Below are positions 3,237 to 19,909 of a DNA stretch of 29,342 nt, in pieces. The notes below the pieces were generated by a model, which had not been told where the DNA came from, did not search any database, and saw nothing but the letters and a program-made list of their open reading frames with translations. Both the position numbers and the translations under genes were made by a program. Numbering within the stretch: the stretch's first letter is position 1; the number at the start of each line of letters is the position of its first letter. The DNA comes from a virus, in IMG/VR virus record IMGVR_UViG_3300027734_000242, positions 1 through 29,342 of that record; one strand, 5' to 3'.

Positions 3237-4508
3237 ATGAAATATTTAAAATTTAGTATTATTACACCGACACACAATCCTAAAAATGTACCATACTTAA
3301 TTGAACTATACGATTCAATTTGCTCTCAGACACACAATAATTGGGAATGGATTTTATATCTCAATAATAAAATAACTGCTGATGATTTACCGGAAAATAT
3401 TAAATCTGACATTAGAGTAATTGTTCACAAATCTGATATTGAAAGTATTAGTATTGGTGCAATAAAAAGAAGAGCATTTTTCTTAGGCGAAGGTGATATT
3501 TTAGTCGAAGTTGATCATGATGATATGATTACGCCAGATTGCTTAGAAGAATTAAATAAAGCATATCAAGATGAAAGTGTTGGCTTTGTTTATAGTGATT
3601 GTGCAATGTTTCATATGAAAGATTCTTTTATTCCTTTTGACAAAGCATATGGTTGGACACATAGAAAATTCAAGTGGAAAGAAAAAGAATTGACTGTTAT
3701 GGATTCTTTTGAACCAACTAGTCATAGTTTATCATATATTTGGTATGCGCCCGATCATGTTAGATCATGGAGAACATCTGTTTATCATTCTATTGGTGGA
3801 CACAATAAAGATTTAGTTGTGTGTGATGATCATGAATTGTGTATAAGAACATATTTAAAAACTAAAATGTTTTATATACCAAAAGTTTTATATATCTATA
3901 GAATTACAGGAAATAATACATCTATAGATGTGATGAATGAGCAAATTCAAATAAAAACAAGAGAATTACACAATCAATATGCACAAAAATTAGCGGAGAG
4001 GGATGCAGATTTAAAAGGATTAATGAAAGTGGATATTGGTGGTGGTTTAAATCCTTATCCTAACTACTATTCAATTGATCTAAGAAAAGATGCAGATTGT
4101 ATATATGATTTAAATAATGGAATACCTTTACCCGATAATTCTGTTGGTGTTTTAAATGCTTCTCATATTATAGAACACTTGCATGATAAAACAAAAATTA
4201 TGGCAGAAATTCATCGAGTATTAGCACCGGGTGGTTGGGCATTTATTGAAGTACCAAGTACAGACGGCAGAGGAGCATTTCAAGATCCAACTCATGTTAG
4301 TTATTGGAATGAAAATTGTTTTCTTTATTATACAAATTCCTATCTGGCAAATTTTATTGATAATAAAACAATTAGATTTCAGGAATATAGAAGAGAAACA
4401 TATTTTCCAAATGATTGGATGAAATCATTGAATGTGTGTGTAACTTCCGCTTGGCTAGTTGCCATTAAAGATGAAATGAAAAGATTGCCAGGTATACTAA
4501 ATATATAA
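3237..4508 (+). CDS. Fused family 2 glycosyltransferase and SAM methyltransferase
   Basis: 423 aa in two domains. Residues about 4-225 are a GT-A fold glycosyltransferase 2: FSIITPTHNP at the N-terminus, the metal/nucleotide site EVDHDDMI (D93-D96), and DDHELCIR near residue 197. Residues about 262-415 are a class I methyltransferase: motif I VDIGGGLNPYPNYYSID (265-281), HIIEHL (310-315) and LAPGGWAFIEVPS (329-341). The fusion suggests that a sugar is added and then methylated, or that the two act on the same glycan. It starts 2 bases after the oxygenase stop, so the pair is probably co-translated. Targets could be phage fibre protein or host surface glycan; nothing in the sequence decides. 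Confidence 0.85.
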   Translation: MKYLKFSIITPTHNPKNVPYLIELYDSICSQTHNNWEWILYLNNKITADDLPENIKSDIRVIVHKSDIESISIGAIKRRAFFLGEGDILVEVDHDDMITPDCLEELNKAYQDESVGFVYSDCAMFHMKDSFIPFDKAYGWTHRKFKWKEKELTVMDSFEPTSHSLSYIWYAPDHVRSWRTSVYHSIGGHNKDLVVCDDHELCIRTYLKTKMFYIPKVLYIYRITGNNTSIDVMNEQIQIKTRELHNQYAQKLAERDADLKGLMKVDIGGGLNPYPNYYSIDLRKDADCIYDLNNGIPLPDNSVGVLNASHIIEHLHDKTKIMAEIHRVLAPGGWAFIEVPSTDGRGAFQDPTHVSYWNENCFLYYTNSYLANFIDNKTIRFQEYRRETYFPNDWMKSLNVCVTSAWLVAIKDEMKRLPGILNI

Positions 4509-5220: not shown

Positions 5221-7719
5221 ATGGCATTACAGATTAGACGAGGGTTGAATCAGGATAGAAAGTCTTTTATTCCTGAAATTGGAGAATTAATTTATACTAC
5301 GGATACGGATTTAATTTACGTTGGAGATGGTGTAACTCCGGGCGGTATATTAGTTTCGGGTCAAGAATCTGTTGTAAGAAACTTTTCGTCTATTAATGCA
5401 AATTCTTTCATAGTTCGAGCAAATGACATAAATCAAACTATGTCGTTTTTGCCAGCGAACGGTGTAACGATAAGAGCTAATTCTAATACAAATACAATAA
5501 CAATTGGGTTTGATGGTACATCTATATTATATGAAACCGCAGCAAACATTACATTAATTAATGCAAATATAGCATATTTAAATGCAATAAATAGTGTACA
5601 GAATACGACCATAAATACACTAAGTATTTTTGCCCAGGCAGCATTCAATGAAGCCAACACGGCACAATTTAATGCGGTATACACTCAAAGTATCAACAGT
5701 TATCAAAATACATTAATTTCCAGCGTCACTGCAAATACAACAGCACTTCAAGGTGGTCTTAACACAGCTAATGTTAATATAACATATATTCAAGGTGTTG
5801 ATTTAACACAAAATACAAATATTACTAATGTTGATGTGAAAGCTCAAGCCGCTTTTGATAAAGCAAATACAGCATCTTCACCACAAGCAGCATTTGATAA
5901 AGCAAATACAGCATCTTCGAATACAATAGCGCTTCAAGGTGGTCTTAATACAGCTAATGCTAATATATCATACATTCTAGGTGTCGATTCTTCACAGAAT
6001 ACAAGCATTACTAATTTACAAGGTGGACTTAATACTGCTAATGCTAATATAGCTTATATTTTAGGTGTTGATCTAACACAAAATACAAATATTACTAATG
6101 TTGATACAAAAACACAATCTGCTTTTGATAAAGCAAATTCAGCAAACGTACTGGCACAATCAGCATTTGATAAAGCAAATACAGCATCTTCAAATACAAT
6201 AACACTTCAAGGTGGTCTTAATACAGCTAATGCCAATATAGCATATATTTACGGCGTTAATGATTCACAAAATACCACAATTGGTACAAAATTTAATTCT
6301 TCTGGTGGAACAATATCTGGTTCTGTCATAATTCAACAAAACTTAACTGTACAAGGTAACGTATCCTATACAGGAAATGTAACGTCAATTACTGTTACAG
6401 GCAATACTGGTCAATTCTTTGGTTATGCAGCAAATGGATTTAATGCTTTATATGCTGGAATTCCAGTTGGTTATCTAATTGAACCACACATAGTTACTCA
6501 ATTTACAAGTAACTTCGATGGTTATTCTGGTCTTAATATGCAAAATATTAATTCTGGACCAAATGCTTCATTTGATTTATTCTTAACCGCTGACAATGGA
6601 ACCGCTTTAGACGGATACGTCGATTTAGGCATTGCTAGTAGTACATATAATTATCCTGGTTATTCTTTAATCGGCAAAAACGACGGTTATCTATTCACTT
6701 CTGGTAATACAACCACGGGTGGTGGTAACATGATTATCGGCACAGGTTTAAATCATGATATTATTTTTGCAACAGGTGGTTTAGAAACACAAAACGCAGT
6801 AATGCGAATTAGTGGTGTTGCTGGTTCCAATGTTATAACAATAACATCAAATATTAAAAGTACATCGACATCATCTGGTGCATTACAAATAAAGGGCGGT
6901 CTTGGTGTAACGGGTAATGTATACGCTGCAAATTTATATTCTGGTGGTTCTTTGGTATTAACTTCAGAGCCAATAGGTACGTTAGCTTCCAGTAATACAA
7001 TTTATTTACAAGGTGGTTTAAATACTGCTAATGCTAATATAGCATACATTCTAGGTGTTGATTTAACGCAGAATACTAGTATCACTAATATTGATACAAA
7101 AGCACAATCAGCATTCGATAAAGCAAATTCAGCAAACGTATTAGCACAATCTGTATATGATTATGCAAATACTTTTAGTATAACAGCAAATACTGGACAA
7201 TTGACTGCTAATGTATCCACTGGAAAAGTTGCACTGGGTCTAGCAAATGTAAATAGTAATATAGGAACATTTGGTGGTGCAACATCAATTCCAGTAATAA
7301 CATTAGATGGTTTCGGTAGAGTCACTTCTTCAGGAAATGTTACAGTTAACATACCACAATCATCTACAATTACAGTTTTAGATGATATATCAAATAGATT
7401 TGATGGTATCGAAAGAACTTTTGGTCTATATAGTGATGGTAGTGTTGCAAATGTTACGGCACCAGAACAGTTATTAGTTCAAGTTGGCGGAATCGTATTA
7501 CCACCTTTTATAAATACGTATGACGTAGTTTTTGGATCAGGATTCATTTCTTTTACTAAAGGATATAATATTGCAAATGTTACTAATGTTACATACATTA
7601 CATTTGCATCGGCACCACAAATCAACATGGATTGTGTGATGCGAGTGATTGGTCAAAATCAAATTCCTCAGATAAAAAAATACCCCCTAAGTCCAATATC
7701 AATAATGATTGGTTATTAA
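5221..7719 (+). CDS. Tail fibre, 832 aa, with hyaluronidase/Mtd-like N-terminal motif
   Basis: The start follows AGGACAATAAATG. The N-terminus (LQIRRG, GELIYTTDTDLIYVGDG, TPGG) is the short module seen at the front of many phage fibres and tropism determinants. Residues about 110-350 and 600-650 carry recurring segments AQSAFDKANT, LQGGLNTANANIAYI and GVDLTQNTNITN, typical of a trimeric coiled-coil or beta shaft. A globular insert lies between (about 350-590), with GALQIKGGLGVTGNVY near its end. The C-terminus (from about 720) has DDISNRFDGIERTFGLYSDG and resembles a conserved distal domain of aquatic T4-like phages. A paralogous shorter fibre lies at 25749. It is probably a structural fibre; no enzyme motif is seen. 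Confidence 0.82.
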   Translation: MALQIRRGLNQDRKSFIPEIGELIYTTDTDLIYVGDGVTPGGILVSGQESVVRNFSSINANSFIVRANDINQTMSFLPANGVTIRANSNTNTITIGFDGTSILYETAANITLINANIAYLNAINSVQNTTINTLSIFAQAAFNEANTAQFNAVYTQSINSYQNTLISSVTANTTALQGGLNTANVNITYIQGVDLTQNTNITNVDVKAQAAFDKANTASSPQAAFDKANTASSNTIALQGGLNTANANISYILGVDSSQNTSITNLQGGLNTANANIAYILGVDLTQNTNITNVDTKTQSAFDKANSANVLAQSAFDKANTASSNTITLQGGLNTANANIAYIYGVNDSQNTTIGTKFNSSGGTISGSVIIQQNLTVQGNVSYTGNVTSITVTGNTGQFFGYAANGFNALYAGIPVGYLIEPHIVTQFTSNFDGYSGLNMQNINSGPNASFDLFLTADNGTALDGYVDLGIASSTYNYPGYSLIGKNDGYLFTSGNTTTGGGNMIIGTGLNHDIIFATGGLETQNAVMRISGVAGSNVITITSNIKSTSTSSGALQIKGGLGVTGNVYAANLYSGGSLVLTSEPIGTLASSNTIYLQGGLNTANANIAYILGVDLTQNTSITNIDTKAQSAFDKANSANVLAQSVYDYANTFSITANTGQLTANVSTGKVALGLANVNSNIGTFGGATSIPVITLDGFGRVTSSGNVTVNIPQSSTITVLDDISNRFDGIERTFGLYSDGSVANVTAPEQLLVQVGGIVLPPFINTYDVVFGSGFISFTKGYNIANVTNVTYITFASAPQINMDCVMRVIGQNQIPQIKKYPLSPISIMIGY
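5830..7160 (+). repeat. Interspersed fibre repeats (AFDKANTA / LQGGLNTANANI)
   Basis: Within the 832-aa fibre, near-identical blocks such as gataaagcaaatacagcatc and caaggtggtcttaatacagc recur around 5850, 5890, 5935, 6020, 6120-6230 and 7010-7130. Related blocks occur in the fibre gene at 25749 (26010-26230). These can support recombination within and between fibre genes. Confidence 0.8.
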
Positions 7720-7732
7720 TCGGAGATAAAAT

Positions 7733-10700
7733 ATGGCACGCAGAGTATTATACGAAAACAGTACAAACCCGAATTATTCTTTTAATCCGGTAACTAAAAC
7801 ACTTATTATTCCGCATTATTATCCCGCGGAAAGATTTGTGTTGATTACGAATATCACCGCTGGTAATAAAGTAATTTATAATTTCTCTGATACTGTATTA
7901 ACTGCCACGATTACTCCAGGATCTCCAAGTTCTACGCAAACAACAATTGTTTTCGCATATAATACAGGATCAATGTCAGCAACCGATAAACTTTCGATAT
8001 TGGTTGATGAAGTTAACGAGTATATTACACCATCAGAAACATTGGTTGATCCTGTTGGCAAACTACGCACATCTACTCCGCAATCTCTAATCGATACTGA
8101 CTTTGAATACGGTTTACAGCCTACCAAGTGGGAAACTTTAAATCTACTTAATAATCGTGCCACATATTACTCCGATGCAAAACAACCATTAGTGGTTTCA
8201 GATATTACAACAACAGCAGGATCAAAAACTGGTGTTATAACATTCACACATTTGTTGGGATCAGGAACAATTTCTAATACCGGTTCATCAATAACTGGCA
8301 GTTCAACAACATTCTTAAATCAAATTATTCCGGGTTATGCGTTATACAATTCATCGAATGTTTTTGTTGGCTTAGTTTCAACTGTTGCAAATAACACATC
8401 GTTACAATTACAAGCAAACGCAAACGTAACACTTTCAGGTGCAACATTTTATTATGCACCAACACAAATACCTGAGGCAGGAACTCCTATTCAGATTCAA
8501 GATTCGTTCAATGATTATTTTAACGGTCTATACATTGCAGATTCTAGAACAAATGCAAACGTATCGTATACAGGAACTTCTGTTGCAAATGCAACTGAAT
8601 CTATTTTCAACTCTGCGATTACTCAAGTGTTTTCTGGTGGATACTATACCGGCGCAAAATATAATATATCTTCGATAACATATTCGGGTAATTTAGTAAC
8701 ATTTACAACAACTGAACCACATGGATTAAATATTGGTTCTGATATTTACTGTTACGGTTTAACAGCATCATCTAATGCTCCAAATGGAAATTGGACAGTT
8801 GTAACAGTAACATCACAAACAGTTTTCGCTGTGAGAGTAACATCAATACCAACAGGATCAATTACAGTTAGTGGTATAACAAATGCTGGTGTATACGCAA
8901 GACCATATGGTATTACCGCACACAGGCCATTCGACGGCGGAACATCATTATCATGTGGTACTGGAGCACAAGGAAATGCATTAATTCGTCAGACAAGACG
9001 TTACTTCCGTTATCAATCAGGTAAAGGAATTCAATGGTCTACAGGTACAATTTTACGTCCAAATATTATTGTTGACCAAATCGCATCTTCTACTTACACA
9101 ATTACAGTAACAACAAAAACTGCACACAATTTGTTTCCAGGTGTTGTTGTCACAATTGGTGGTGCGACAGATTCAGCATATAATGGAACATTTACAGTTC
9201 TTGATACTCCTACAAATTATACATTCACAGTTTTAGCTGCAACATTACCAGCATCGACACAAGCATCAGGCAATTTCATATTAAGTGTTACAAATTGGAA
9301 CGGTGCAACTGCAAGAATAGGATTGTTTACTGCAACAAACGGAATGTTTTTTGAATATGATGGGCAAACATTATATGCTGTGCGTAGAAGTTCGACAACA
9401 CAATTGTCAGGATATGTAAACGTCACAAATGGTTCATCTACAGTTACAGGTGCAACAGTTAATGGTGTATCGACACTATTTTCAAGACAATTAATACCTG
9501 GTCAATTCATTGCAATTCGAGGTCTTCCTTATCGTATTATGAGTATTGCTAGTGATACATCGATGCAGATTTCTCCTCCATATCGTGGTATTACACTTTC
9601 CGGTAAGAGTGTTGCAGTTGTTTCAGAATTAATCGAAACAAGAATTCCACAGTCTTCGTGGAATCTTGATAGAATGGACGGCACAGGTCCTAGTGGATAC
9701 AATTTAGATTTGTCAAAAATTCAGATGTTCTATATTGATTATTCTTGGTATGGTGCAGGTGCAGCCAGATTCGGTTTCAAAGACCAACACGGACAAGTTA
9801 TCTATTGCCACAGATTCATTCATAATAATCAGTTAACAGAAGCGTTCTTGCGTTCCGGTAACTTGCCTGCAAGATATGAAGTTAATACATATGTACCAGA
9901 AACACAATTAACTTCTTCTGATACTGGTTTAGATTTTATTAATGTGGTCAGTACAACTGGATTTCCAAATACAGGAACTTTATTAATCCGAGATCCTGCT
10001 AACTATGAACATGTTAATTATACAGGTAAAACCTCTACAACATTTACTGGATTAACAAGAGGTAAAGCTGGTAATACAGATCCAGGATTTATTTGCACTT
10101 CTAATACAGGCAACACCTTCATTACAACAACATCGCCAGTTGCGAATTTACAAATTAATCAAAGAATTACATCAAATGTTATTCCTACAGGTACATTCAT
10201 TACTTCGATTATTACAGGCTCGCCAAGTAATACAATTCGTTTAAGTCGTGCTGCCACGGCAACGGCAACTGTAACTATGAACGTGGATCCGATGGGTTCG
10301 ACAACATCAACACATACATATTCTGCAACCGCACCAATTACAATCGCATTAGCAGCACCAGAATTTGTACCTACAATATCGCATTGGGGTTCTTCAGTTA
10401 TTATGGATGGCCGTTACGATGATGATAAGTCGTTTGTGTTCTCAACACCATCAACATCATCATTGACAATTGCTCCTGGTGTAACAAATGCAGTTTTATC
10501 TTTACGTCTTGCACCATCAGTTGATTCTGGTGTTGTAGGACTACTCGGACAACGTGAAGTTATTAATACTATGCAGTTAACGCTTCGTCAAATGGACGTT
10601 TTCACCAATGGTAACTTTTTGGTTAGATTGGTGTTGAATGGCATTGTTGATCCCGGTGATACTTGGCAAACTGCTGGTGCGCCAAGTCTTTCACAAGTGT

Positions 10701-10978: not shown

Positions 10979-10986
10979 TATAAAAA

Positions 10987-11313
10987 ATGATCACACCAAT
11001 CGTAACTGATGCGGTAGTAATAGGCAGTTCCAAAAATCCAGGACAATTTAATTTAAATGGTGATGGAACTGTCTCAAATATACTCAATGTAAATACATTA
11101 GCCGTAAATGGAAAAGTTGGTATCAATAGTGCGAATGGTACAATAAATTATGGTGTCGCTGGTCAAGTATTAACTTCAAGTGGCGCAAATGCTGCTCCCA
11201 TTTGGTCTAATATTACTGGAGGAACTGGAGGAAGTTCTACTGGTGCAGCTACTAGTTCAAGTGGAGTTTCAACAGGCAAAACAATCGCAATGGCAATTGT
11301 GTTTGGAGGATAA
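10987..11313 (+). CDS. Small fibre-module protein 'MITPIVTDA', copy A
   Basis: 108 aa. The first 70 residues (MITPIVTDAVVIGSSKNPGQ, then NVNTLAVNGKVGINSANGTI, then GQVLTSSGANAAPIW) are closely matched by the 129-aa protein at 19520. The C-terminus is a Ser/Gly/Thr-rich linker ending in a hydrophobic IAMAIVFGG. Its phrasing is typical of collar or fibre segments ('YGxxGQVLTSxGANxxPxW'). It opens fibre module A. The exact role is unknown; a connector between fibre shaft and tip proteins is inferred from context. Confidence 0.65.
   Translation: MITPIVTDAVVIGSSKNPGQFNLNGDGTVSNILNVNTLAVNGKVGINSANGTINYGVAGQVLTSSGANAAPIWSNITGGTGGSSTGAATSSSGVSTGKTIAMAIVFGG
11105..11139 (+). repeat. 35-bp exact direct repeat, left copy
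   Basis: These 35 bases, inside the copy A small fibre gene, recur without mismatch at 19638-19672 inside its paralogue, 8533 bases downstream in the same orientation. Flanking bases diverge but remain similar. Confidence 0.92.
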
Positions 11314-12275: not shown

Positions 12276-13745
12276 ATGAAATATTATACACACCCATATC
12301 TATTAGCAAATTATCCTAAAATGGTTGAATTTAGGCGCGCCATCAAACTAAATGTATTTACTAAAAAAGATTTATATTCGGTAGACAGAATGGGCATTAT
12401 AGGTAATGATCCAAACATTATAGTTATCCAACCTGTATTAAACTATGATTCTTCGCGCAAATATGATTTTGATATCCTAATAGAAAGCAGAGCAAAAGAA
12501 TTAATTGAATTAAGCAATACAAGAAACATACCAATTTATTTAATGTGGAGTGGTGGAATAGATAGCACTAGTGTCTATTGCGCTATAAAAAAACATTTAA
12601 CAGATAATAAAAAATTAGTTATATTATGTAATAAAAATTCAATTAAAGAATATCCTGAATTATATAACGAAATGATATCAGAACATGAAATTATTGACCT
12701 GGGTATTGTCGAATTTGGATTAACTATTAACAAATTGGCAAACATCGACAGTATATTTGTTACGGGTGAACTAGGTGATCAACTTTTTATGTCTAGACCT
12801 CCTAGAAAAAAAAGTAGTTTAACATCAATTGATTGGATCAACGATCCTTGGGAAGCAGTACTGGACCCAAATGCATCACAATATCATAGTGTTGTTGATG
12901 AATATGTTAAAAATTTTCCCATTCCAATTATTACAGCAAGAGATTTTGGCAGAAGTATAAAATTTAACTTAGAATATCAGCGCGCTCAACTTAGAATGAG
13001 TTTATTTTATAAAAATTTAGTATTAAATAAAAATTTATTTCATTTTTATGATACTATAGATTTTAATTATTATTCTTTAAGTTTATCTTTAGATGAATTG
13101 GGTATTGATTATAGGACTCATACAATCAAGTTACCTCTTAAACAATTAATTTTGGACTATACTGTTGACCAACACTATTATGAAAATAAACCTAAAGTTA
13201 AAAGAATTATGGCATTAAATCCAATTCAAATAACAAATACTATAGATGAAAATTGGAATAAATCATTAATTACCTTATCGTACACACCAAACTCAAATAA
13301 TGAATATATAGTAGATCAACCAGCAATCTATCACTATCAAGATGCATCTAAAAGTCAAGAGTTGGACTTTAATACAGGAATAGTTGATTGGAAAATGTAT
13401 CGTTTTGATGAAAGAAAATATATAAATTTTACAACAGAAGAAATAATAAAAGAGAATAATTATATTGTTGTCTGTGGTTTTGCGGAGAATAAACCAAAAA
13501 CATTAGAAAACTTTTTTATAATTGCCGGAACATTTTCTGAGTATAATATAAAGTCTGATAATATTAGTATATTGGTTTTACAGAAATTATTTTTATCCAA
13601 AACAGTAAAATTAATTGGCAACCACTTTCAAGGAGAATATGATCAAGTTATTAAAAAAGAATTTGAACAACAAATTAGTATAATAGATTGCAATGAATAT
13701 GAAGTGATTGATCCGAAAAATTATAATTTTACAAATTGGAGGTAA
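12276..13745 (+). CDS. Asparagine synthetase-like PP-loop ATP pyrophosphatase
   Basis: 489 aa. The signature PP-loop is MWSGGIDSTSV (SGGIDST at 92-98), which binds ATP pyrophosphate in adenylating amidotransferases, and GELGDQLF (164-171) matches the GDELF region of AsnB-type synthetases. The N-terminal class II glutaminase domain of true AsnB (Cys2) is absent; the first 80 residues are unrelated. A class I glutamine amidotransferase is encoded in the same cassette (16931) and could supply ammonia. The last 110 residues are unrecognised. It could activate a carboxylate for amide formation; the substrate is unknown. First gene of the cassette; the upstream sequence has only a weak ribosome binding site (gcgaagaa). 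Confidence 0.75.
   Translation: MKYYTHPYLLANYPKMVEFRRAIKLNVFTKKDLYSVDRMGIIGNDPNIIVIQPVLNYDSSRKYDFDILIESRAKELIELSNTRNIPIYLMWSGGIDSTSVYCAIKKHLTDNKKLVILCNKNSIKEYPELYNEMISEHEIIDLGIVEFGLTINKLANIDSIFVTGELGDQLFMSRPPRKKSSLTSIDWINDPWEAVLDPNASQYHSVVDEYVKNFPIPIITARDFGRSIKFNLEYQRAQLRMSLFYKNLVLNKNLFHFYDTIDFNYYSLSLSLDELGIDYRTHTIKLPLKQLILDYTVDQHYYENKPKVKRIMALNPIQITNTIDENWNKSLITLSYTPNSNNEYIVDQPAIYHYQDASKSQELDFNTGIVDWKMYRFDERKYINFTTEEIIKENNYIVVCGFAENKPKTLENFFIIAGTFSEYNIKSDNISILVLQKLFLSKTVKLIGNHFQGEYDQVIKKEFEQQISIIDCNEYEVIDPKNYNFTNWR
13738..13742 (+). promoter_or_regulatory. Ribosome binding site GGAGG that fixes the start of the binding-protein gene
   Basis: GGAGG lies inside the last codons of the PP-loop gene, 5 bases before ATG 13748. 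It favours that ATG over the in-frame TTG at 13736, since the TTG codon overlaps the GGAGG site itself. Confidence 0.75.
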
Positions 13746-13747
13746 CG

Positions 13748-14701
13748 ATGTTTAAAAAATTATTACTATTATTGACAATATTTTGTACTCAAGCATATGC
13801 TTGGGAACCAACTAAATCAATTAATGTTATGATTGGTTTTGCTCCAGGATCAGGAAATGAAATTAGTTTTCGTGGAGTCAGTAGTATATTAGAAAAAAAT
13901 AATCCAAAAGTTAAATTTATTATTGAAAATAAACCTGGTGCAGATGGTTTAATTGCAATAAATGACTTTATGAAAAAACCTGCTGATGGTTATCATGTTT
14001 ATATTCCAAGTCATCAAGGTATATGGCTAACAGGTGAATTTTTCTATAAAAATCTTGTAAATTTTACAGTAAACGATTTTGAATACGTGGTTACTATTGC
14101 AAAAAGTCCACTAGCCGTTATTGCGTATGGTGAAAGTTCAGTTAATACTGTTCCTGATTTACTACAAAGAATTAAAACTACAAATAAACCTATAACATTT
14201 GCTGCTGGTAGTGGTTCACATAGACTTGCTTTTGAATATATGAAAAGCAAAGTTGAAATGAGTGATTTGGTTAAAACTGTAGGTTATAAAGGACCAGCAC
14301 AAGCAGCACAAGATGTTGCTGGCGGTCATGTAGAATTTGGTATTATACCAATTGCGGTAGCAGCACCATTGCTTTCAAGTGGAAAAATTAAAATCTTAGG
14401 TTTATGTAGTGAAAAAACTTTATCTAATATTGATGCACCACTAATGAATAAATGGATTCCAGGCATGAATGTTTATGCTGCTTGGGGCATTGTATTACCT
14501 AAAGACACACCGTCAGAAATAGTCAACTGGTATGTTGACAACTTTGCAAATGTAATAAGATCATCTGAAAGTAAAAAGTTTTTTGATCAAAACTATATGT
14601 TTACTGATGAACGCGAACTGGCACCGATTGGATTTAAAAATAATATAGTAAAATTAAGAGAACAATGGATTCCAATTTTGCAAAATTTAAAGATTGAATA
14701 A
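13748..14701 (+). CDS. Tripartite tricarboxylate transporter (TctC/Bug)-type periplasmic binding protein
   Basis: 317 aa from the ATG chosen by the GGAGG site. Residues 1-18 form a clear Sec signal peptide (FKKLLLLLTIF, cleavage after AYA). The mature part follows the Bug/TctC pattern: W-E-P-T-K-S-I-N-V start, GFAPGSGNE (30-38), IENKPGADGLIAINDF, KPADGYHV, TFAAGSGS, GYKGPAQAAQDVAGGHVEFG, LGLCSEK, and WGIVLPKDTPSEIV. The fold binds carboxylates or related small molecules in the periplasm and feeds TctAB membrane proteins. No TctA or TctB is encoded here, so it would need host partners or act as a sensor or scavenger. At the position usually 'GGxTD' it has GSGNE, so ligand preference may differ. 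This is unusual cargo for a T4-like phage. Confidence 0.88.
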   Translation: MFKKLLLLLTIFCTQAYAWEPTKSINVMIGFAPGSGNEISFRGVSSILEKNNPKVKFIIENKPGADGLIAINDFMKKPADGYHVYIPSHQGIWLTGEFFYKNLVNFTVNDFEYVVTIAKSPLAVIAYGESSVNTVPDLLQRIKTTNKPITFAAGSGSHRLAFEYMKSKVEMSDLVKTVGYKGPAQAAQDVAGGHVEFGIIPIAVAAPLLSSGKIKILGLCSEKTLSNIDAPLMNKWIPGMNVYAAWGIVLPKDTPSEIVNWYVDNFANVIRSSESKKFFDQNYMFTDERELAPIGFKNNIVKLREQWIPILQNLKIE

Positions 14702-14704
14702 CGC

Positions 14705-14860
14705 ATGTTCATTAAATTTATCAAGACTATATACAATAAAATCAAACAATTTTGGCATTGGTCAAATAATTTTGAAGATGATTATTCTTTTGCACTAAGG
14801 ATGGAACGTGAATATGAAAGTATGCGATTACACAGAAAGCAATCAAGAGTTACTAAATAA
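14705..14860 (+). CDS. Small basic protein, 51 aa, unknown
   Basis: An open frame begins 3 bases after the binding-protein stop: MFIKFIKTIYNKIKQFWHWS followed by an acidic then strongly basic tail ending SRVTK. The N-terminus could form a basic amphipathic helix. It fills the only gap in the cassette and overlaps the next gene by 47 bases in another frame. No good ribosome binding site is visible, and I do not recognise the family. It is reported because the gap would otherwise be empty in a compact genome. Confidence 0.42.
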   Translation: MFIKFIKTIYNKIKQFWHWSNNFEDDYSFALRMEREYESMRLHRKQSRVTK

Positions 14861-15368
14861 TTATTTTTCAAATCATTGGACATCCCGTGGAGTAGCGGGT
14901 ATTTCATCACCAAAAACTATAGCAACTTTAATTAAAGAAGACGAATGGTTGTTGGATGTAGGTTGTGGAACTAATCCATTTAAACGGTTACTTAAAAATG
15001 TTATAGGCATAGATCCTGCATTTAACGAAGCAGATTATAAATGCACTATAGAAGAATATGAACCCGATAGACTATTTGATGTTGCCACGTGTTTAGGTAG
15101 TATAAATTTTGGTACCGAAGATATCATCGAAAGACAAATTGATAAGGTTGTTAGTTGTTTGAAACCACAATCTAGAATATATTGGAGATTAAATCCTGGA
15201 AGATTTGATCACAATAGTACAGAATGTTTAAAAGTTCCTTTTTATCCATGGACATTTGAACAGTTAAATGTATATGCAAATAAACATAATTTTATTCAAG
15301 TCGCTCAGGCTATGGACGAACACGTTGTGAGGCCAAGATTATATGCAGAATGGTATAGAACTTCCTAA
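14814..15368 (+). CDS. Class I SAM-dependent methyltransferase
   Basis: 184 aa from ATG 14814; a GTG at 14808 would add two residues. AAGGATGGA lies upstream. Motif I is LLDVGCGTNPF (about 46-56), followed by NVIGIDPAF (motif II acidic region), LFDVATCLGSINFG (motif IV region) and YWRLNPGRFDH. It resembles small standalone methyltransferases that act on sugars or small molecules. Its 3' end overlaps the sulfotransferase-like gene by 26 bases, so the two are probably translationally coupled. The substrate is unknown. Confidence 0.75.
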   Translation: MKVCDYTESNQELLNNYFSNHWTSRGVAGISSPKTIATLIKEDEWLLDVGCGTNPFKRLLKNVIGIDPAFNEADYKCTIEEYEPDRLFDVATCLGSINFGTEDIIERQIDKVVSCLKPQSRIYWRLNPGRFDHNSTECLKVPFYPWTFEQLNVYANKHNFIQVAQAMDEHVVRPRLYAEWYRTS

Positions 15369-15960
15369 AAGAATATTTTTCACAGGCGCACCAGGTAGCC
15401 GTTGGAGTGGTATAGCACAAACTATCGAGAATCTTAGCGGATTCAATACTAGTGATCGTAATGATAACAGAGTGCATTACAGAAAAGGTATTGGTAGAGG
15501 AGGCAATATTGGTAAAATGCATGGACACAATGGATCATATTTTGGCCACGAAATGGAATTTGAGGCCATATTAGATGCAGATTACTTAGATCAAGCATGG
15601 AGTAATTTGAGTGGTACACGGATAATAAAAAGTCATGAATGGGCTTATAAAATAGAAGAAATAAAAAATAAGTTTCCTGATGATTGGATTATGTTAGTTT
15701 ATAGACCAGACATGGTTAGTTATTCTTGGTGGCATGAACTCGGTGGATTTAAAATTTCATATCCCAAATATACTTGGTATAAAGATAGTCCTACTATGTT
15801 AGGTGAGATAATTAAAATCAATTCACATATATTAGAGTCTGCTTATAAATACAATTTGACATGGAATTATTTAACAGAAGATTGGATTCAAGATAATTTT
15901 GGTCAGACTACAGAAATAATAACCAAAAGTTCAGACGTTCTAGTTACAATATTAAAATAA
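15343..15960 (+). CDS. Sulfotransferase-like protein
   Basis: 205 aa. The N-terminal IFFTGAPGSRWSGIAQ (residues 11-26) is a P-loop-like 5'-phosphosulfate binding loop, and MLVYRPDMVSYSWWHELGGF fits the 3'-phosphate motif with Arg and Ser. PAPS-dependent sulfotransferases share this arrangement, and related short versions occur in aquatic T4-like phages. It would transfer sulfate from PAPS to a glycan or small molecule. A P-loop kinase of another type is the alternative. Starts inside the methyltransferase gene. Confidence 0.65.
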   Translation: MQNGIELPKRIFFTGAPGSRWSGIAQTIENLSGFNTSDRNDNRVHYRKGIGRGGNIGKMHGHNGSYFGHEMEFEAILDADYLDQAWSNLSGTRIIKSHEWAYKIEEIKNKFPDDWIMLVYRPDMVSYSWWHELGGFKISYPKYTWYKDSPTMLGEIIKINSHILESAYKYNLTWNYLTEDWIQDNFGQTTEIITKSSDVLVTILK

Positions 15961-15963
15961 ATA
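15956..15963 (+). promoter_or_regulatory. Possible late promoter AATAAATA
   Basis: AATAAATA, one base from TATAAATA, overlaps the sulfotransferase-like stop and precedes ATG 15978, with AAAGAGAAATA as ribosome binding region. In such AT-rich DNA it may be chance. Confidence 0.35.
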
Positions 15964-15977
15964 TTCAAAGAGAAATA

Positions 15978-16178
15978 ATGATTTCATCATTTTTAGTTGA
16001 TAAAAAAACGTATTACAGTAGACTGCAAATTTGTACATCATGTGATAAATTTGAAAAAGTTTTGCATAGATGTTCTGAGTGTGGTTGTATTATGCCATTG
16101 AAGGCTAAAATTGCAAATTCTACTTGTCCATTAAATAAATGGCAACAAGTAGATAACAGTTTAATAAAAGATCAATAA
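15978..16178 (+). CDS. Small Cys-rich zinc-ribbon-like protein
   Basis: 66 aa with a Cys pattern of CTSC, then CSECGC, then TCP ending in NKW. The spacing and the C-terminal 'K..IANSTCPLNKW' match a small DUF6171-like family frequent in phages and proposed to bind zinc. Function is unknown. It sits between the sulfotransferase-like and ferritin-like genes and could be an accessory or regulatory protein. Confidence 0.65.
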   Translation: MISSFLVDKKTYYSRLQICTSCDKFEKVLHRCSECGCIMPLKAKIANSTCPLNKWQQVDNSLIKDQ

Positions 16179-16188
16179 GGAATAGACA

Positions 16189-16965
16189 ATGAAATATGAT
16201 ATGGTAGATATAGAAAAAATGGCAGAAGACAATGATTCTGTAAATCATCAAATTAAACAATTTGTTGACAAAATAGAATCTGATAACGAAACTTTATTTG
16301 CAGTTTCAGAAAAACAAGTTAAAAACTTTTATATGACACATTCAAATACAGATTTGGTAAAGCATTTTACCAGTCGTATGGTTAATGAGCGTATGAATAT
16401 GGTAGAGTTGGCCAAACAAATTGCTAATTCTGATGCGGGTATGGATCCAAAAGAATTACAATTATTAAGTAAACAAGCATTGGATGAGGCTAATCATTTT
16501 AGAATGGTAAAAGATGTTGTTGAACATTTAAATGGTGGTCCAATCAACATTAAAGAGTTTGTTGAATATGATTCGGCAAATAATTCTAGTTCTAAAGGCG
16601 CTAAACTTATCCAAAAATATAATTGTGACAATGACGAAATGGCAATGGCATTATATCAGTTTATTTGCGAAGGTCGTGCAGCACGAAATTGGTTTATGAT
16701 GTCAACTTGTGTTACAGATCCATTTATTGCAAATACTTACGCAAGAATTGCACGAGATGAAAAATTTCACTCAAAAATTGGTAGACGTAAATTAATGCAA
16801 CTTTGTGATACTCCAGAAAAACAAGAACGTGCAATGAAAATTGCTAATGCAATGCGTATTGATCTATATGAAATTAATTGCAGTGGATCAGGAGAGATGG
16901 AAGGCACTCGTGAATTAATCGAAAAAGCATATGGTAAAGCAGAGCAGTTTGAAAATAGCAATTAG
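16189..16965 (+). CDS. Ferritin-like di-iron protein
   Basis: 257 aa, start supported by AAGGAATAGACAATG. The helical core holds a full di-iron ligand set: Glu67 (VNERMNM), E100-x-x-H103 (DEANHFRM), Glu161 (CEGRAARNW) and E191-x-x-H194 (RDEKFHSKIG). The E, ExxH, E, ExxH order and roughly 30-residue spacing match oxygen-activating carboxylate-bridged enzymes (PaaA, aldehyde deformylating oxygenase, ribonucleotide reductase R2 relatives) and rubrerythrin. Length and lack of a rubredoxin tail favour an oxidase or oxygenase. It is not a phage NrdB: the sequence is too short and lacks the radical-tyrosine context. Its 3' end overlaps the amidotransferase gene, so they are probably translated together. 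Confidence 0.75.
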   Translation: MKYDMVDIEKMAEDNDSVNHQIKQFVDKIESDNETLFAVSEKQVKNFYMTHSNTDLVKHFTSRMVNERMNMVELAKQIANSDAGMDPKELQLLSKQALDEANHFRMVKDVVEHLNGGPINIKEFVEYDSANNSSSKGAKLIQKYNCDNDEMAMALYQFICEGRAARNWFMMSTCVTDPFIANTYARIARDEKFHSKIGRRKLMQLCDTPEKQERAMKIANAMRIDLYEINCSGSGEMEGTRELIEKAYGKAEQFENSN

Positions 16966-17488
16966 TCAGCGAGAAGAAACTATTGGAAAATTTAATTATG
17001 ATTGCTTGTCACAAAATTGGTATAGATTTTTAAATAAACATCAGATTATTCCTATACCTAACGTGGATGATAACAAAGAATATGATTTTGATGTTTTAAT
17101 TTTAAGTGGTGGCAACTGTAGTTTATCTAGGTTTCACACAGAATTAAAGTTATATAATCATGCTGTGGATAAAAATTTGCCTATAATTGGTATTTGTCAT
17201 GGTGCTTTTTTTATCGCAGAAATAAATGGTTCAATATGTGCAGATGTTAAAGGACATAAAGATACAGAACACACGATTAATATGGAAGATAAAGAATTTA
17301 TAGTAAATAGTTCACATAATAGCAAAATTACAAAACTTGGTAAAAATTTTAATATTATAGCTACAGACAAAGAATACAATATAGAAGCATTTAAACACGA
17401 TAAAAAATCAATTTGGGGTATGTTGTGGCATCCAGAGAATATGAAAAATGCTGTATTACCTTCAGAACTACACTCATTACTGATGTAA
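16931..17488 (+). CDS. Class I glutamine amidotransferase (peptidase C26-like)
   Basis: 185 aa from ATG 16931; a TTG at 16949 giving KIAISQRE is a plausible alternative because the family starts near that point. Nucleophile elbow GICHGAF carries Cys89, and WHPE supplies His167 and Glu169, completing the triad. LILSGGN (56-62) is the usual oxyanion-side strand. This domain releases ammonia from glutamine for a partner synthetase, or hydrolyses gamma-glutamyl amides. The PP-loop protein at 12276 lacks a glutaminase, so the two may form a split amidating enzyme. Overlaps the ferritin-like gene by 35 bases. Confidence 0.85.
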   Translation: MVKQSSLKIAISQREETIGKFNYDCLSQNWYRFLNKHQIIPIPNVDDNKEYDFDVLILSGGNCSLSRFHTELKLYNHAVDKNLPIIGICHGAFFIAEINGSICADVKGHKDTEHTINMEDKEFIVNSSHNSKITKLGKNFNIIATDKEYNIEAFKHDKKSIWGMLWHPENMKNAVLPSELHSLLM

Positions 17489-17497
17489 GGATACAAA

Positions 17498-17944
17498 ATG
17501 CCGGAAGAAATTAGTTTATCAGAATTGGAGATTCAGTTTCCATATGATCCTGAGACAGATACAATCAATCAAAAACTACCAGATCCAATAGTTCTTACTG
17601 GAGATGTGATTGAAATTACCGAATGGAATGTTTTTTCTGTTAGATCAAAAATATTAGGATATAAAACCTTACATTTTGTAGGCAAAATTAATGTAAATAA
17701 TCAAATAATGGACTATTACAGTGGTCCAGTAAAAACATACGATCCAAAAAATGATTGGTGGATACAAGATGAACAATTTGTTTGTCCAGGGTGTAAGAGA
17801 ATATATTATAGACTTGTGGGTTTACGAAATATACATTCTATGATTAATAAAAATATTATGCCTAACATGGATAATCTTGATATTACACTTGAAGAAAATT
17901 TTTATGTTTATAAAAAAACGGAAGATTCACCGGTATATCTATAA
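17498..17944 (+). CDS. Unknown protein with CPGC motif, 148 aa
   Basis: AAGGATACAAAATG supports the start. The sequence has SRSKI-like and beta-rich segments, then DDWWIQDE-style aromatics (NDWWIQDEQFVCPGCKRIYY) with a single CPGC pair, and ends KKTEDSPVYL. Two cysteines alone could complete a metal site only in a dimer or with His29-type ligands elsewhere. I do not recognise the family. It is the last gene before the second tip protein and abuts it with no gap (TAA then ATG), so it could belong to the fibre module rather than to the enzyme cassette. Confidence 0.55.
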   Translation: MPEEISLSELEIQFPYDPETDTINQKLPDPIVLTGDVIEITEWNVFSVRSKILGYKTLHFVGKINVNNQIMDYYSGPVKTYDPKNDWWIQDEQFVCPGCKRIYYRLVGLRNIHSMINKNIMPNMDNLDITLEENFYVYKKTEDSPVYL

Positions 17945-19488: not shown

Positions 19489-19519
19489 TATAATAATTTA
19501 TAGGAAAATTTAATCTAAA

Positions 19520-19909
19520 ATGATAACACCAATCGTAACTGATGCTATAACAATAGGTAGTTTCAAAAATCCAGGTCAACTGAATTTGATTGGTGATGGA
19601 ACTGTATCAAATGTTTTAAACATTAATACATTATCAATAAATGGAAAAGTTGGTATCAATAGTGCGAATGGTGTAATAAATTATGGCAATTCTGGGCAAG
19701 TTTTAACTTCAACTGGTGCAAACTCTGTTCCAAATTGGGCAAATGCTGCTACTACATATCAATTACCTGTTGCTAGTGCGTCTACATTAGGTGGAATAAA
19801 AGTTGGATCAGGATTAAGTATGAATGTAGAAACAAGTGTACTCAGCAGTACTAGTGTGGGTGGTGTTACACTAGCAGCAGTAATTATAAATGCAATGGTC
19901 TATGGTTAA
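19520..19909 (+). CDS. Small fibre-module protein 'MITPIVTDA', copy B
   Basis: 129 aa, paralogue of 10987. The N-terminal 70 residues match almost position by position (MITPIVTDAITIG, KNPGQLNL, NGKVGINSANGVINYG, GQVLTSTGAN). After the shared part it carries YQLPVASASTLGGIKVGSGL, a widespread phage fibre motif absent from copy A, which has a Ser/Gly linker there instead. It opens module B. Confidence 0.68.
   Translation: MITPIVTDAITIGSFKNPGQLNLIGDGTVSNVLNINTLSINGKVGINSANGVINYGNSGQVLTSTGANSVPNWANAATTYQLPVASASTLGGIKVGSGLSMNVETSVLSSTSVGGVTLAAVIINAMVYG
19638..19672 (+). repeat. 35-bp exact direct repeat, right copy
   Basis: Identical to 11105-11139, same orientation. The pair brackets the end of module A and the whole enzyme cassette. 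Confidence 0.92.

Follow-up and report, generated by a model that had tools for sequence, protein, structure and literature searches.

Among the described systems closest to the genes considered here, CDP-phosphoramidate 3'-phosphate is made in Campylobacter from glutamine, ATP, and CTP by four enzymes (PMC11800397), with a glutamine kinase catalyzing one of the steps (PMC6429109). Marine phage genomes carry sulfotransferases whose role is unclear (PMC10580990), and tctA occurs on SUP05 viral contigs, where its role is unknown (PMC4164917). The cassette analyzed here, which occupies positions 12,276 to 17,944 of IMG/VR record IMGVR_UViG_3300027734_000242 (a linear stretch of 29,342 bases, hereafter the window), shows likenesses to each of these. 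It encodes a ferritin-like diiron oxygenase (FER), a glutamine amidotransferase (GAT), a methyltransferase (MT), a sulfotransferase-like protein (ST), a transporter receptor (TctC), a PP-loop protein (PP), a zinc-ribbon protein, and the product of a 148-amino-acid (aa) open reading frame (ORF). As a preliminary description of the locus had suspected, the set as a whole matches no named pathway, and literature searches found no description of it. Its core is a recurring five-gene module consisting of FER, GAT, MT, ST, and, often, TctC.

Recurrence of the module in viral and bacterial genomes

FER has 228 relatives in IMG/VR when the window protein's own peptides are searched and at least 413 when a family profile is used. 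All FER-seeded counts refer to the best 80 FER loci of the IMG/VR search, which redundancy removal reduces to 45. Within the best 80 loci, the GAT, MT, and ST families lie mostly within a few kilobases of FER, in varying order and strand, and the MT family is present in 60. The 45 nonredundant loci include 40 with GAT, 34 with MT, and 31 with ST; 24 have a 2-oxoglutarate (2OG)-oxygenase-like family and 19 have a second sulfotransferase-like family, and the transporter components TctA and TctC are found at 14 and 11 loci, respectively. When only those nonredundant loci having 3 kb on both sides are considered, GAT is present in 31 of 33. Gene content is retained while gene order and strand are shuffled across many phage backbones, and the clustering greatly exceeds chance expectation.

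Seeding with GAT alone recovers FER in 77 of 80 loci, and the three exceptions are all truncated by a contig edge at the expected site of FER: two of the contigs (L095 and L153) open inside GAT or immediately ahead of it, and the third (L131) starts inside PP and has the PP-GAT-TctC order of L021, in which FER is upstream. Among 17 ST-seeded loci, MT is present in 16, TctC in 10, and FER in 8, and MT and ST (with or without TctC) therefore form another unit that is partly independent. At L170 to L177 and L184, these parts are arranged differently, as MT-ST-TctC with no FER or GAT within the stretch examined. The protein distances of FER and its partners are correlated (Mantel r of 0.45 to 0.73, with at most 1 of 2,000 permutations as high).

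The preliminary description had proposed a possible shared pathway for these genes and had named an absence of co-occurrence as grounds for refuting it; under reciprocal seeding, no such absence was seen for FER, GAT, MT, or ST. The proposal stands for these four genes (and TctC), which recur together. It does not extend to PP, which occurs in a minority of relatives, or to the zinc-ribbon gene and 148-aa ORF, which are confined to one phage population.

Among 50,697 deposited phage records, tblastn searches with the window FER and a central family member as queries returned no FER relatives; these phages also contained no relatives of MT or PP, only one match to ST, and three weak matches to GAT or TctC. 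In genome_contigs, there are only six FER records at ≥38% identity, a seventh being a remote relative. Contigs of metagenome-assembled genomes (MAGs) labeled Nitrosopumilaceae or Rhodobacteraceae (L083, positions 1397 to 2179; L085; L087) carry a phage-type cassette; these are probably prophages or viral contigs binned in error. An Acidobacteria MAG has a remote FER relative (28%; L089, positions 7932 to 8645), which adjoins a cytochrome c-type protein and perhaps represents an ancestral cellular branch.

On the chromosomes of Janthinobacterium, Massilia, and Tahibacter, FER is accompanied by a conserved operon that encodes ST, MT, and an enzyme of the sulfatase superfamily, and in the first two of these, a cupin and a second sulfotransferase-like protein also adjoin FER. 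None of the three loci contains GAT. FER is sporadic, occurring in 2 of 294 Oxalobacteraceae genomes. The Janthinobacterium and Massilia FER proteins are nested inside phage diversity in the tree, suggesting that they were acquired from phages, and that of Tahibacter forms a long branch. Chromosomal presence suggests that the product is useful to a living cell. The sulfatase-superfamily protein, which is 61 to 80% identical across the three (L084, 5073 to 6413; L086, 2272 to 3678; L088, 11461 to 13548), carries Thr at the nucleophile position (Cys/Ser in sulfatases), is without the Arg residue of the formylglycine (FGly) motif, and is possibly a phospho- rather than a sulfohydrolase.

Active sites and family assignments

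Active-site conservation in FER, GAT, and ST was read across 38 to 52 relatives. The FER ligand set is E67, E100xxH103, E161, and E191xxH194, and the six diiron ligands, part of a set of 26 invariant columns, are found in every one of the 38 aligned relatives; an E/ExxH/E/ExxH pattern is the ferritin-like arrangement. By these ligands in a predicted helical bundle (AlphaFold model; pLDDT of 92, pTM of 0.89), FER is assigned to the ferritin-like diiron oxygenase superfamily. In VIA-align comparisons, the model matches CADD, an aldehyde-deformylating oxygenase, and MiaE equally (Z of 15.8), with VlmB, HrmI, and BesC close behind (range, 13.4 to 15.8), and because the scores are equal, fold alone cannot choose among hydroxylation, N-oxygenation, and C-C cleavage. 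Matches to DUF455 and PaaA_PaaC are subthreshold (19 to 20 bits versus cutoffs of 28.5 and 34.3), the family profile has no sequence match in the PDB at E values up to 1, the best Foldseek E value is no better than 9e-3, and a fold search of BFVD returned only ribonucleotide reductase-like and otherwise weak matches. Tandem FER copies, both types of which retain the ligands, occur in 7 of the 45 nonredundant loci (L005, L007, L008, L013, L015, L021, and L034), which suggests a heteromer or two oxidation steps.

By its sequence, GAT is a class I glutamine amidotransferase: the triad C89-H167-E169 is invariant in aligned relatives, and the PF00117 match lies above the cutoff (2e-15). The best NCBIfam match of the window protein is NF045546, γ-glutamyl-CDP-amidate hydrolase (1.7e-24); GMP synthase subunit A scores lower (1e-17), and γ-glutamyl-γ-aminobutyrate (GABA) hydrolase is among the weaker matches. 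Every one of the 21 GAT family members tested also matches NF045546, although the window protein scores 87 bits against a cutoff of 250. A survey of 398 Pseudomonadota genomes with NF045546 found three relatives, none above the cutoff, all in operons with a nucleotidyltransferase and a protein of about 780 aa that we read as a pyruvate phosphate dikinase (PPDK)-like kinase, i.e., a putative glutamine kinase; one operon also includes an adenylylsulfate (APS) kinase. At L198 (1180 to 10507), three tetratricopeptide repeat proteins flank the bacterial glutamine kinase/GAT/nucleotidyltransferase operon, and their C-terminal domain has sulfotransferase-like motifs, recognized by eye.

The ST motifs GxPGSxWS, KSH, and R..WW show little or no variation among 38 sequences, and both a 5'-phosphosulfate-binding-like loop and a 3'-phosphate-binding motif are present. 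The window protein alone has no Pfam match, and PF13469 (Sulfotransfer_3) weakly matches 4 of 21 family members (best, 8.8e-4). Relatives of the cassette add TctA, 2OG-oxygenase-like and cupin proteins, and more sulfotransferase-like proteins; the 2OG and extra sulfotransferase-like labels come from motifs read by eye, with no Pfam match. An APS-kinase-like enzyme, alone or fused to a nicotinamide mononucleotide adenylyltransferase (NMNAT)-like nucleotidyltransferase domain that is not related to the NTP_transf_3 cytidylyltransferase (one example of the fusion is L024, 6317 to 7168), often adjoins ST in relatives. Of 30 whole viral records, 12 have an APS kinase match above the Pfam cutoff. 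In 8 of these, the gene lies within 5 kb of FER, and in the remaining four (G299, G306, G313, and G316), it is 75 to 80 kb away; the G316 gene is near carbamoyltransferase, radical SAM, and DegT-like genes.

The cassette in its phage genome

The source phage is a T4-like myovirus, as indicated by gp13/14/15-type neck proteins, sheath proteins, and a terminase downstream of the cassette; tail fiber genes lie upstream and on both sides. All eight ORFs listed in the preliminary description are present on the plus strand (Table 1), and both gene overlaps that it noted are real, measuring 26 nucleotides (nt) for MT/ST and 35 nt for FER/GAT. The latter is shorter if GAT starts at TTG 16949, where the family consensus begins. 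TctC probably starts at ATG 13748, directly after the PP stop codon, rather than at TTG 13736, because a GGAGGT ribosome site lies just 5' of this ATG and a Sec-type leader follows from it. Near-identical cassette copies occur on two more IMG/VR contigs (L002 and L095/L186), and the gene set is therefore no assembly artifact.

TABLE 1 Genes of the cassette, with positions in the window and basis of assignment
Feature	Position	Strand	Basis
PP: PP-loop ATP-pyrophosphatase, asparagine-synthetase-like domain	12276..13745	+	WSGGxDST motif, Foldseek matches
TctC-type solute-binding receptor, predicted Sec-type signal peptide MFKKLLLLLTIFCTQAYA	13748..14701	+	PF03401 3.9e-28
MT: class I S-adenosylmethionine (SAM)-dependent methyltransferase	14808..15368 (start GTG 14808 or ATG 14814)	+	PF13489 5.3e-4, subthreshold
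ST: sulfotransferase-like group-transfer enzyme	15343..15960	+	GxPGSxWS / KSH / R..WW motifs
66-aa zinc-ribbon protein, DUF6171 / phrog_13558; bystander	15978..16178	+	DUF6171 8.5e-8
FER: ferritin-like diiron-carboxylate oxygenase, module core	16189..16965	+	Ligand residues, predicted fold
GAT: class I glutamine amidotransferase / γ-glutamyl hydrolase, FER partner	16931..17488	+	PF00117 2e-15
148-aa ORF, lineage specific, probably outside module	17498..17944	+	No family match

On the strength of its PF03401 score (99 bits versus a cutoff of 27) and a Sec-type leader read from the sequence, TctC is assigned as a tripartite tricarboxylate transporter (TTT) receptor. It recurs beside MT/ST and FER/GAT, and TctA (PF01970, 9.4e-88) occurs in relatives. 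PP, in which WSGGxDST is invariant among 7 relatives, has no Pfam match and no N-terminal NTN (N-terminal nucleophile) glutaminase domain. Its predicted structure is poor (pLDDT of 53) and was used for its core only; the best Foldseek matches are carbapenam synthetase (1.1e-4), asparagine synthetase, TsnB9, and β-lactam synthetase. PP is an accessory gene that most relatives lack: clustering places it in 8 of the 80 FER-seeded loci, and only 20 of the 80 loci seeded with GAT carry it. The latter count led to the rejection of a GMP synthetase-like GAT-PP pair as the core. Copies of the source phage are the only FER loci with the zinc ribbon, and the 148-aa ORF is known only from copies at 93% identity in the same phage population; both are passenger cargo, for which a chance pile-up is accepted.

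Promoter and terminator scans of the window were at chance level. A known antiphage defense system was rejected, since none of the eight proteins has a PADLOC match. An 82% identical 228-nt direct repeat (10984 to 11211 and 19517 to 19744) lies on either side of the cassette and its neighboring fiber genes. The two copies are the beginnings of small paralogous genes and offer possible homology for cassette exchange. Upstream in the fiber region, a 423-aa protein (3237 to 4508) has weak methyltransferase and glycosyltransferase PHROG matches in separate parts. The ORF at 5221 to 7719 was rejected as a kinase and has fiber-like repeats; an ARAGORN call of tRNA-Ser (anticodon act) at 7525 to 7608, inside this ORF, is probably a false positive.

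Candidate pathways and related systems

From the gene content, conserved active sites, and co-occurrence observed above, we infer a reaction order, substrates, an acceptor, and a benefit, and we lean, if only slightly, toward a mobile phage tailoring module in which a small group made by FER and GAT is activated as a donor and transferred by sulfotransferase-like proteins to an acceptor. FER and GAT, as a near-obligate pair, would make or unmask the group, with FER oxidizing and GAT hydrolyzing a γ-glutamyl-protected (or glutamine-derived) N bond. The APS-kinase-like enzyme of many relatives, sometimes fused to a nucleotidyltransferase, would convert the group into a 3'-phosphonucleotide donor, the type of donor on which sulfotransferase-fold enzymes act, a step drawn by analogy with 3'-phosphoadenylylsulfate (PAPS) and 3'-phospho-CDP-amidate. 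ST, along with the further sulfotransferase-like proteins in relatives, would then pass the group to the acceptor, MT would methylate the donor or the product, and a carboxylate precursor may come in through TctC, joined in relatives by TctA. The likeliest acceptor, put forward tentatively, would be surface glycans of the infected cell or virion, since the related Campylobacter pathway decorates one and certain neighboring genes (a carbamoyltransferase and an FkbM methyltransferase) fit surface chemistry.

The tailoring chemistry of the preliminary description is well supported by recurrence as a modification pathway for FER, GAT, MT, and ST (with TctC) but not as sulfation. ST may transfer a group other than sulfate, because GAT is nearest to γ-glutamyl-CDP-amidate hydrolases and the APS-kinase-like genes occur without the ATP sulfurylase PF01747, found in 0 of 29 records (the CysDN type was not tested). 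A more far-reaching version of the tailoring module, possible but doubtful, is a new phage-centered pathway: FER and a γ-glutamyl-amidate hydrolase would together produce a donor group, containing N or P, that has no precedent; sulfotransferase-fold enzymes would attach it to the surface of the infected cell or to virion or nucleic acid polymers; and a few bacteria would have acquired the pathway from phages.

Several observations weigh against a single tailoring module. Some ST-MT-TctC sets occur without FER, and GAT is missing from the chromosomal FER loci, so that FER can evidently function in its absence. Common phage ancestry may explain part of the Mantel correlations. ST is tied to sulfotransferases by its motifs and by low Pfam scores, no APS-kinase-like gene is present in the 29-kb fragment that forms the window, and the glycan hints from the carbamoyltransferase and FkbM neighbors are only scattered.

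Of the alternatives, a nucleoside-diphosphoramidate pathway as in the Campylobacter capsule would have GAT free CDP-amidate, the APS-kinase-like enzyme make the 3'-phospho donor, ST transfer phosphoramidate, and MT O-methylate it, with N-phosphoglutamine coming from the host or a nonhomologous enzyme. This would account for NF045546 as the best family of GAT, matched by every member tested, for the true CDP-amidate-type operons in which the nearest bacterial GAT relatives sit, and for the APS-kinase-like genes, some nucleotidyltransferase fused, that often lie beside ST. We nevertheless consider it unlikely: the window GAT falls far short of the family cutoff, FER, the 2OG oxygenase, and the cupin have no place in such a pathway, and two of its enzymes were not found. 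The PPDK_N glutamine kinase is absent from the window and from all 30 relatives (the control was positive in 13 of 14 genomes; records may be fragments), and the NTP_transf_3 cytidylyltransferase is absent from all 29 records, including the window. Family c29 was rejected as a glutamine kinase, being ClpB-like. Direct membership in the O-methyl phosphoramidate (MeOPN) pathway was likewise rejected; because the defining kinase and cytidylyltransferase tests both failed and oxygenases are added, the module resembles the CDP-phosphoramidate pathway in part but is not classed as a member of it.

Under true sulfation, a glycan or metabolite hydroxylated by FER and the 2OG oxygenases would receive sulfate from ST, with PAPS supplied by the host or by the phage APS-kinase-like enzyme, and GAT would give ammonia to an amidation by PP; this reading is also improbable. 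The sulfotransferase-like motifs and PF13469 matches, the APS kinase matches over the Pfam cutoff in 12 of the 30 records, and the conserved sulfatase-superfamily gene that adjoins ST in the bacterial loci all fit this scheme. The lack of PF01747 in the 29 records speaks against it, the bacterial "sulfatase" has the altered nucleophile and FGly motif described above, and the strict FER-GAT pairing is left unexplained, with PP missing from most loci.

The module might instead scavenge carbon or nitrogen, with TctC and TctA importing a carboxylate or conjugated amine, FER oxidizing a γ-glutamyl-protected amine, and GAT removing the γ-glutamyl group, feeding phage replication. An oxygenase and a glutamine amidotransferase act in this manner in some amine degradation pathways; the strong TctA matches in relatives, the position of TctC next to FER/GAT, and the γ-glutamyl-GABA hydrolase among the weaker GAT matches agree with it. 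No γ-glutamyl ligase was seen in the cassettes, however, MT and ST have no part in the scheme, and TctC and TctA occur in only 11 and 14 of the 45 nonredundant loci, making this an improbable account, to which we give little credence. A chance pile-up of unrelated cargo in a hypervariable tail fiber region, to which the patchy or lineage-specific PP, zinc ribbon, and 148-aa ORF (part of the list being passenger cargo) and the bracketing repeat would lend themselves, is very improbable and was rejected for FER, GAT, MT, and ST by reciprocal seeding, given the almost complete FER-GAT co-occurrence and the recurrence of FER, ST, and MT on bacterial chromosomes too.

Gene sets of this general kind, phage auxiliary metabolic cassettes, are already known; the core of this one, returning to the tailoring module, is a diiron family not yet filed, and it may prove to be a new pathway. 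A strongly conserved oxygenase family on at least 413 viral stretches is tied to an amidotransferase whose nearest relatives make P-N bonds, and a multienzyme pathway is rarely kept across unrelated phage backbones without strong selection. Knowing the product would reveal a new phage remodeling of host metabolism or surfaces, would assign a role to sulfotransferase-like and TctC/TctA genes of phages, which are currently listed as auxiliary genes without explanation, and could uncover a new diiron reaction.

Each component has counterparts from which the module differs. Like the CDP-phosphoramidate (MeOPN donor) pathway of the Campylobacter jejuni capsule (Cj1415 to Cj1418, with Cj1421/1422), the phage set combines a GAT of the same best-matching family, an APS-kinase-like enzyme in relatives, methyltransferases, and group-transfer enzymes; unlike it, the set is phage encoded and adds a diiron oxygenase, a 2OG oxygenase, a cupin, and TTT components. 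ST shares the loop and KSH motifs, and in some members PF13469, with the PAPS-dependent Sulfotransfer_3 proteins of marine phages, but most ST members fall below detection and are set in a FER/GAT/MT context. PP resembles the ATP-pyrophosphatase domain of asparagine, β-lactam, and GMP synthetases, and a class I amidotransferase with a PP-loop protein follows GMP synthetase logic; in contrast to these synthetases, PP has no fused glutaminase and is missing from most GAT loci. FER has the same predicted fold as ferritin-like diiron oxygenases (MiaE, aldehyde-deformylating oxygenase, PaaA/PaaC, and VlmB) and heme oxygenase-fold diiron oxidases such as CADD, with only about 10 to 17% identity in structural alignments. 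As with the SUP05 viral tctA, a TTT transporter gene is found on viral contigs, here tied to a defined enzyme module.

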